A DNA stretch of 64,000 nt from an uncultured Bacteroidota bacterium (GTDB lineage: Bacteria; Bacteroidota; Bacteroidia; Flavobacteriales; Flavobacteriaceae): the NCBI GenBank assembly GCA_902514615.1, contig CABXRG010000004.1, positions 1-64,000 on the forward strand, written 5' to 3'. Position 1 is the first letter of the stretch; each line of letters begins with the position of its first letter. Position numbers and translations under genes: made by a program. Below, in pieces: positions 4,952 to 5,826 of this stretch. The notes beneath the pieces were generated by a model that searched no databases, was not told where the DNA came from, and saw only the letters and a list, made by a program, of their open reading frames with translations.

Positions 4952-4958
4952 AAATTTG

Positions 4959-5031
4959 AGGGCAATGGAGGACTCAAACCCCCATCTGAAGAGCCGTAAT
5001 CTTCTGTTCTATTCAGTTGAACTAATTGCCC
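4959..5031 (-). tRNA. tRNA-Arg (anticodon ACG)
   Basis: A full cloverleaf folds on the minus strand: acceptor GGGCAAT/ATTGCCC, D stem GTTC/GAAC, anticodon stem GAAGA/TCTTC with loop TTACGGC (anticodon ACG), a 4-base variable loop, and T stem GGGGG/CCTCC. CCA is not encoded. Two core positions are unusual: the D loop has G18-A19 instead of GG and the T loop TTTGAGT has U56 instead of C56, so the usual G19-C56 pair becomes A19-U56. The base in the discriminator position is U. A TATTTTTG promoter element lies 9 bases upstream. Confidence 0.9.
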
Positions 5032-5441: not shown

Positions 5442-5449
5442 TATATTTA
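5442..5449 (+). promoter_or_regulatory. Possible -7 promoter element for the Cys-rich micropeptide
   Basis: TATATTTA differs from the consensus TAnnTTTG only in the last base, and the same octamer occurs at the predicted lysA promoter in this window. It ends 17 bases before the micropeptide ATG, implying a leader of about ten bases. No TTTG is seen 19 bases upstream. Confidence 0.35.
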
Positions 5450-5466
5450 TTAGATAAATTAAAATC

Positions 5467-5532
5467 ATGTATTGTAATTGTAAAGACTGTAATTGTACAA
5501 AATCATGTGATTGCGCATGTTGTAATTGCTAA
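5467..5532 (+). CDS. Cysteine-rich 21-residue micropeptide, metallothionein-like
   Basis: A 22-codon frame (ATG to TAA) encodes a peptide with nine cysteines in 21 residues, at positions 3, 5, 8, 10, 14, 16, 18, 19 and 21. They form CxC, CxxC and CC spacings, and the rest is Asn, Asp, Lys, Ser, Thr, Ala and Tyr, with no aromatic residue except Tyr2. This is the composition of a metal-thiolate cluster peptide. Cysteine codons (seven TGT, two TGC) are too frequent for chance in DNA this AT-rich. It has its own -7-like element and no overlap with another gene. An alternative is a cysteine-sensing leader peptide for the RNA downstream. Function is inferred from composition only. Confidence 0.6.
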   Translation: MYCNCKDCNCTKSCDCACCNC

Positions 5533-5596
5533 TTTTTATCATAAATTATTGATTTTCAGTGATTTGATAAAAGTTATTAACAATTTAAAGTAAAAA

Positions 5597-5627
5597 TTTG
5601 TTTTTGTAAAATAGATTTATACTTTTA
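5597..5627 (+). promoter_or_regulatory. Promoter for candidate structured RNA
   Basis: TTTG at 5597-5600 is followed by exactly 19 bases and TACTTTTA at 5620-5627. This matches the Bacteroidota -33/-7 layout, with one mismatch in the last base of the -7 element. The same TTTG-19-TAnnTTTA form precedes lysA in this window. Transcription would begin near 5633. Confidence 0.5.
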
Positions 5628-5632
5628 TAAAA

Positions 5633-5800
5633 CAATTAGAAAAGGAAACCTAATTAACTTCCACTTTAAACGCAAGTTTGAATATAAATTGTAAACTCTT
5701 TAAGAATGACAAAAGCAGTAAAATTAACTGCTCATTGAAATAAAATTCAATCAATCTTAAAGAATTAGAAAGCCTGATTCACTTGTGAGTCAGGCTTTCT
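5633..5800 (+). ncRNA. Candidate structured small RNA, about 170 nt
   Basis: This stretch has no open frame, its own promoter-like sequence, and ends in a strong hairpin. By eye it folds as: AATTAG (5634-5639) with CTAATT (5650-5655); a 7-bp hairpin TTTAAAC/GTTTGAA (5665-5682) closed by a GCAA tetraloop; an 8-bp stem CTTTAAGA (5698-5705) with TCTTAAAG (5755-5762) that encloses two 6-bp hairpins, AGCAGT/ACTGCT (5714-5732) and ATTGAA/TTCAAT (5734-5751); then the terminator. A stem enclosing two hairpins is a three-way junction. I do not recognise it as 6S, SRP, tmRNA or RNase P RNA. It could instead be a 5' leader of the lipoprotein gene downstream. Confidence 0.45.
5767..5800 (+). terminator. 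Strong hairpin terminator
   Basis: AGAAAGCCTGATTCA (5767-5781) pairs with TGAGTCAGGCTTTCT (5786-5800) around a CTTG loop: 15 pairs with one G-U. No protein gene ends nearby on either strand except the micropeptide 234 bases upstream, so it most likely ends the candidate RNA. The T-tract after it is short (TTAATT). Confidence 0.7.
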
Positions 5801-5826
5801 TAATTATAAACCTTATCTAAATAATT

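Follow-up and report, generated by a model that had tools for sequence, protein, structure and literature searches.

The nine cysteines of the animal metallothionein beta domain form an M3Cys9 cluster. This domain (PDB 1M0J, MT_nc, 28 residues) is a short chain of CxC units that makes up one part of a two-domain protein, and the copper metallothionein of Neurospora crassa (N. crassa; PDB 1T2Y), a single domain with CxC pairs, is 25 aa long, so metallothioneins can be about as small as the 21-residue peptide described here. The SmtA/BmtA proteins (PF02069) and the Pseudomonas metallothioneins are also Cys-rich and carry CxC motifs; members of the BmtA/SmtA family have at least ~50 residues with His ligands, and a Pseudomonas member is reported to bind Zn3 or Cd4 in a Cys9His cluster (PMC7387436). 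A search of open-access papers found no report of a phage metallothionein.

We analyzed a 64,000-nt stretch of DNA (hereafter, the window; GC content of 28.8%) from an uncultured member of the Flavobacteriaceae. By translation, its (+) strand contains at positions 5467..5532 an ORF of 21 codons plus TAA (ATG at 5467–5469, stop codon at 5530–5532) that encodes MYCNCKDCNCTKSCDCACCNC, a peptide with one Tyr and nine Cys at positions 3, 5, 8, 10, 14, 16, 18, 19, and 21, i.e., with the framework CxCxxCxCxxxCxCxCCxC-stop. The first-pass annotation had pointed to a Cys-rich short frame here, and its coordinates, its length, and all nine Cys positions proved to be as described. This exact Cys pattern occurs only once in the window's genome, a partial assembly that is ~81% complete.

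Judged from its sequence, the minimal peptide looks metallothionein-like in design and appears to lie outside the BmtA/SmtA family. Specifically, it combines a low mass with a very high Cys content arranged in CxC and CC motifs and with few aromatic residues, which are features of the metallothionein class, and we take its opening CxCxxCxC to resemble the start of SmtA. However, it is less than half the length of the SmtA/BmtA and Pseudomonas metallothioneins, and neither it nor any of the 19 bacterial copies (see below) contains His. In addition, Pfam returned no PF02069 match for four of the peptides, none was found in 25 genomes of the window's genus (a control genome was positive), and no SmtB-type operon was seen; membership in the BmtA/SmtA family was therefore rejected for want of a PF02069 match, of His, and of sufficient length. 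The peptide is nearly equal in size to the N. crassa protein but has nine Cys rather than seven, differs in their spacing and from the Gly/Ser spacers of that protein, and showed no sequence relation to it, nor was a significant sequence relation found to the animal beta domain. A phmmer search of the PDB with a consensus-like peptide as the query gave no match, and no matching family was found in PHROGs, Pfam, or NCBIfam, with one phage peptide (see below) giving an insignificant match to Metallothio_2 (E-value of 2.4).

We searched 60 relatives at the DNA level, with no Cys pattern imposed, and recovered the locus in most genomes of the genus, together with one copy in a second genus (genome G028). 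All 19 orthologs (18 in the window's genus, including the window itself, plus the G028 copy) keep the nine Cys, their spacing, the peptide length, and the stop codon, and the reading frame is intact throughout; neither a loss of Cys positions nor a frame-shifting change, two of the findings that the first-pass annotation had named as fatal to its proposal, was observed. The comparison of synonymous and nonsynonymous change that it had recommended gave a pooled dN/dS of 0.079 over the ORF and of 0.51 at the non-Cys codons (pairwise counts were pooled, and the related genomes are not independent), while the Cys codons show only TGT/TGC exchanges (pN = 0). The spacer residues between the Cys vary, mostly among small polar or charged residues, and besides the Cys, Ser13 and Asn/Asp20 are mostly retained. 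Selection is directed at the thiol positions and their spacing, whereas the residues between them drift. One ortholog (G004) has ATA at the expected start codon and no ATG. In six genomes of the genus without the peptide, the flanking exchanger gene was also unmatched, and the segment is therefore probably missing from these assemblies; in G016, the contig starts just past the ORF. A pattern search of 349 genomes of the family found true matches only in G028 and the window's genus (of seven family-level matches, four were poly-TGT repeats and were discarded), and 148 genomes of the order plus 296 of the phylum gave no match besides the window. In bacteria, the peptide gene is lineage-restricted.

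Beyond bacteria, the same framework is common in marine T4-like phages. Since our first scans of genome and viral contigs were swamped by poly-Cys (TGY repeat) low-complexity sequence, we searched IMG/VR with a stricter pattern that demands [Asn/Asp]Cys (RAY for the first residue) and TAA at the end, and found the framework in at least 120 contigs; the two viral scans together yielded at least 124 simple copies with at least 91 distinct core sequences. Among the matches listed, these contigs are AT-rich (mostly 25–35% GC), with records of up to 210 kb. Genes neighboring the peptide include a T4-type portal (PF07230) and a terminase that is ~60% identical to that of its closest relative, Flavobacterium phage immuto, and the hosts of these T4-like phages are probably marine Flavobacteria. 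The first phage set had been chosen by pattern; we therefore re-sampled phage loci through two neighboring genes and found the exact framework in 51 of 52 Cys-rich sORFs, which, with the stricter pattern, counters the concern that the viral matches are a pattern artifact. The single exception, MKCDCKECNCGTTCEHTCCNC (locus L421, IMGVR_UViG_3300031519_006853), has His in place of Cys16. Many of the sampled loci lack a Cys-rich sORF in the vicinity, and the gene is accordingly variable among these phages; the full framework was not found in immuto or Mel-JY01, which are the nearest cultured phages, and a tblastn search of named phages with the 21-mer gave no match, although a query so short and biased may be filtered.

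The phage peptides, of which MKCNCKVCNCGTSCDCTCCNC is an example, are 20–23 residues long among the matches listed, except for one 36-residue form, MRNRQNCNCENCKCQKACNCMKCNCSKSCDCACCDC (locus L219, IMGVR_UViG_3300030102_006951, ~795–905 on the (−) strand), whose extra Cys-rich N-terminal part is possibly an internal duplication. Also among the matches listed, Cys accounts for 42.5% of residues, aromatic residues are present in no more than trace amounts, and the main phage set contains a single His. Phage and bacterial copies are similar at the DNA level only across the ORF and a few bases beside it (~78–85% identity; best E-value of 2e-16). The distribution of the gene, lineage-restricted in bacteria and common in these phages, would naturally be read as gene flow between phage and host, in either direction. 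In many phage loci (e.g., L285, L332, and L317), a pyridine-nucleotide-disulphide-type oxidoreductase gene lies ~185 nt downstream of the peptide; among named proteins, its product is closest to NAD(FAD) dehydrogenases from Campylobacter phages (~25% identity).

These features make it likely, in our judgment, that the ORF encodes a free-standing minimal single-cluster metallothionein, with metal binding as its predicted activity. The peptide would be translated as a free chain of 21 residues (20–23 in phages), and its nine Cys thiolates would wrap a small soft-metal cluster, either M(II)3Cys9 with Zn or Cd, as in the animal beta domain, or a Cu(I) cluster, so that the bound metal would be buffered or sequestered. 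T4-like phages presumably use the same gene to manage host metal (e.g., Zn or Cu) during infection, which is speculation. Conservation of Cys alone could also serve a redox or codon-sensing role; the replacement of Cys16 by His, the sole natural ligand change seen, points to metal binding, since His is a metal ligand. Phages often encode small regulatory proteins, and Ser13 and Asn/Asp20 are largely conserved beside the Cys, as might be expected if the product, instead of storing metal, were a small peptide for redox or thiol buffering, or one that binds zinc and interacts with proteins, for example as a phage or host regulator. However, with a dN/dS of ~0.5, the non-Cys codons offer a specific partner little conserved surface, and both the nine-thiol framework of CxC and CC motifs and the Cys-to-His change are more in keeping with metal ligands than with a redox pair, which renders this reading unlikely.

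The gene is independent of its neighbors. The order of the locus in the genus is fixed: prfA, purM, and glutamine synthetase (names that we assign by family knowledge from the protein sequences), a Na/Ca exchanger, tRNA-Arg, an optional 119-aa gene, the peptide, an optional lipoprotein gene, and pirin on the other strand. The 119-aa gene is uncalled in six peptide-bearing genomes (G004, G007, G011, G015, G018, and G019), and the lipoprotein gene is uncalled in seven (G005, G010, G012, G015, G019, G021, and G022), where pirin, on the other strand, comes next; the peptide gene is retained when either neighbor is lost. In G028, it occupies an unrelated core locus, upstream of tuf, tRNA-Trp, nusG, the genes for ribosomal proteins L1 and L10, and rpoB. 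Given that its neighbors are optional within the genus and that its chromosomal site differs in G028, the peptide is a free-standing gene. At the G028 site (locus L404, 154–459), it lies directly behind an apparent tRNA 3′ end, and its stop codon is immediately followed by the start of a Kazal-type lipoprotein gene. In G007 (locus L392, 5898–5970), the tRNA-Arg(acg) gene is reported to share its strand with the peptide, whereas the window (4958–5031) and the other relatives checked have it in the opposite orientation. No metal regulator or metal transporter was identified beside the gene, the nearby Na/Ca exchanger not being a soft-metal gene.

Bacteroidetes promoters have the form TTTG-N19-TAnnTTTA. 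Upstream of the ORF, a possible −7 box, TATATTTA (5442..5449, (+) strand), is TAnnTTTG-like and weakly kept in relatives; it ends 17 bases before the ATG, the very spacing given by the first-pass annotation, and TTTG is absent at the usual −33 distance, which leaves half a Bacteroidetes promoter. Just past the stop codon, an AT-rich hairpin is predicted at 5542..5566 ((+) strand); a similar small hairpin can be seen by eye in many relatives, although not all single-sequence folds form it. It is followed by a near-invariant block, AAAGTTATTAACAATTT (5570..5586, (+) strand), which has a single copy in the genome and which we take to resemble a DnaA box (presumably TTATNNACA) or a regulator site. 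Next on the (+) strand come a Bacteroidetes-type promoter-like element, TTTG-N19-TACTTTTA (5597..5627), a structured RNA (5627..5766) for which this element would serve, and a strong terminator-like hairpin (5767..5801) that would form the RNA's end in the window's clade. Among 13 sequences, 20 of 30 predicted pairs in the RNA show changes on both sides, and its helices covary among themselves. A covariance model located the RNA in 17 genomes of the genus, nine of which (one clade) carry a head-to-tail tandem pair, and gave one weak distant match. The RNA had no Rfam match and was absent both from the searched phage loci and from G028, where the peptide is present. Judged a unit separate from the peptide gene, the genus-restricted RNA at 5627–5766 (to 5801 with the end hairpin) is a candidate new non-coding RNA and is probably a neighbor that the peptide does not control.

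The proximity of this RNA bears on the proposal of the first-pass annotation that the ORF encodes either a minimal metal-binding peptide or a Cys-sensing leader. Amino-acid attenuator leaders are short ORFs that are rich in one codon and lie near an RNA structure, and the nine Cys codons of the 22-codon ORF (stop codon included) do adjoin a strongly structured RNA; ribosome stalling at these codons under Cys starvation would then control the following RNA or genes. The lipoprotein gene that directly follows the stop codon in G028 and the same-strand orientation of the next gene in most phage loci are in keeping with such a role. A leader should, however, have a conserved downstream target, whereas the seven genomes without the lipoprotein gene continue with pirin on the other strand, 9 of 115 phage loci among the matches listed have an oppositely oriented gene next, and the downstream genes in phage loci are of several kinds. 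Unlike an attenuator structure, the RNA is preceded by a promoter-like element of its own, and the peptide persists where the RNA is absent; the exact Cys spacing, without gain or loss of a codon, is also unexpected for a codon sensor. Synteny and the separability of peptide and RNA disfavor the leader, which we regard as improbable. The metal-binding half of the proposal is the one strongly favored by the sequence data, through the absolute constraint on Cys positions and length, the drift of the other residues, and the phage framework.

Finally, the ORF is very short and its product is missing from all family libraries searched, but there is next to no chance that it is a spurious frame or an annotation artifact, in light of the purifying selection, the orthologs, the phage homologs, and 100 first-order Markov copies of the window, in which ORFs of 15–61 codons with at least 20% Cys never approached its Cys content (maximum of six Cys in any comparable short ORF; 82 copies without any ORF of five or more Cys). 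The 21-residue frame is a real and strongly conserved gene.

On balance, we favor the view that these peptides constitute a new family of minimal (20–23 aa) single-cluster metallothioneins common to T4-like marine phages and Flavobacteriales, one that would include phage-encoded metallothioneins and rank among the smallest that are genetically encoded. A 21-codon frame, below the usual size limit of gene callers and found in none of Pfam, NCBIfam, and PHROGs, is a gene under strong selection in marine phages and bacteria alike. If the peptide binds metal, it would offer a model metallothionein of very small size, accessible by peptide synthesis, and phages would bring metal buffers of their own, which would connect the trace-metal chemistry of the ocean with infection.
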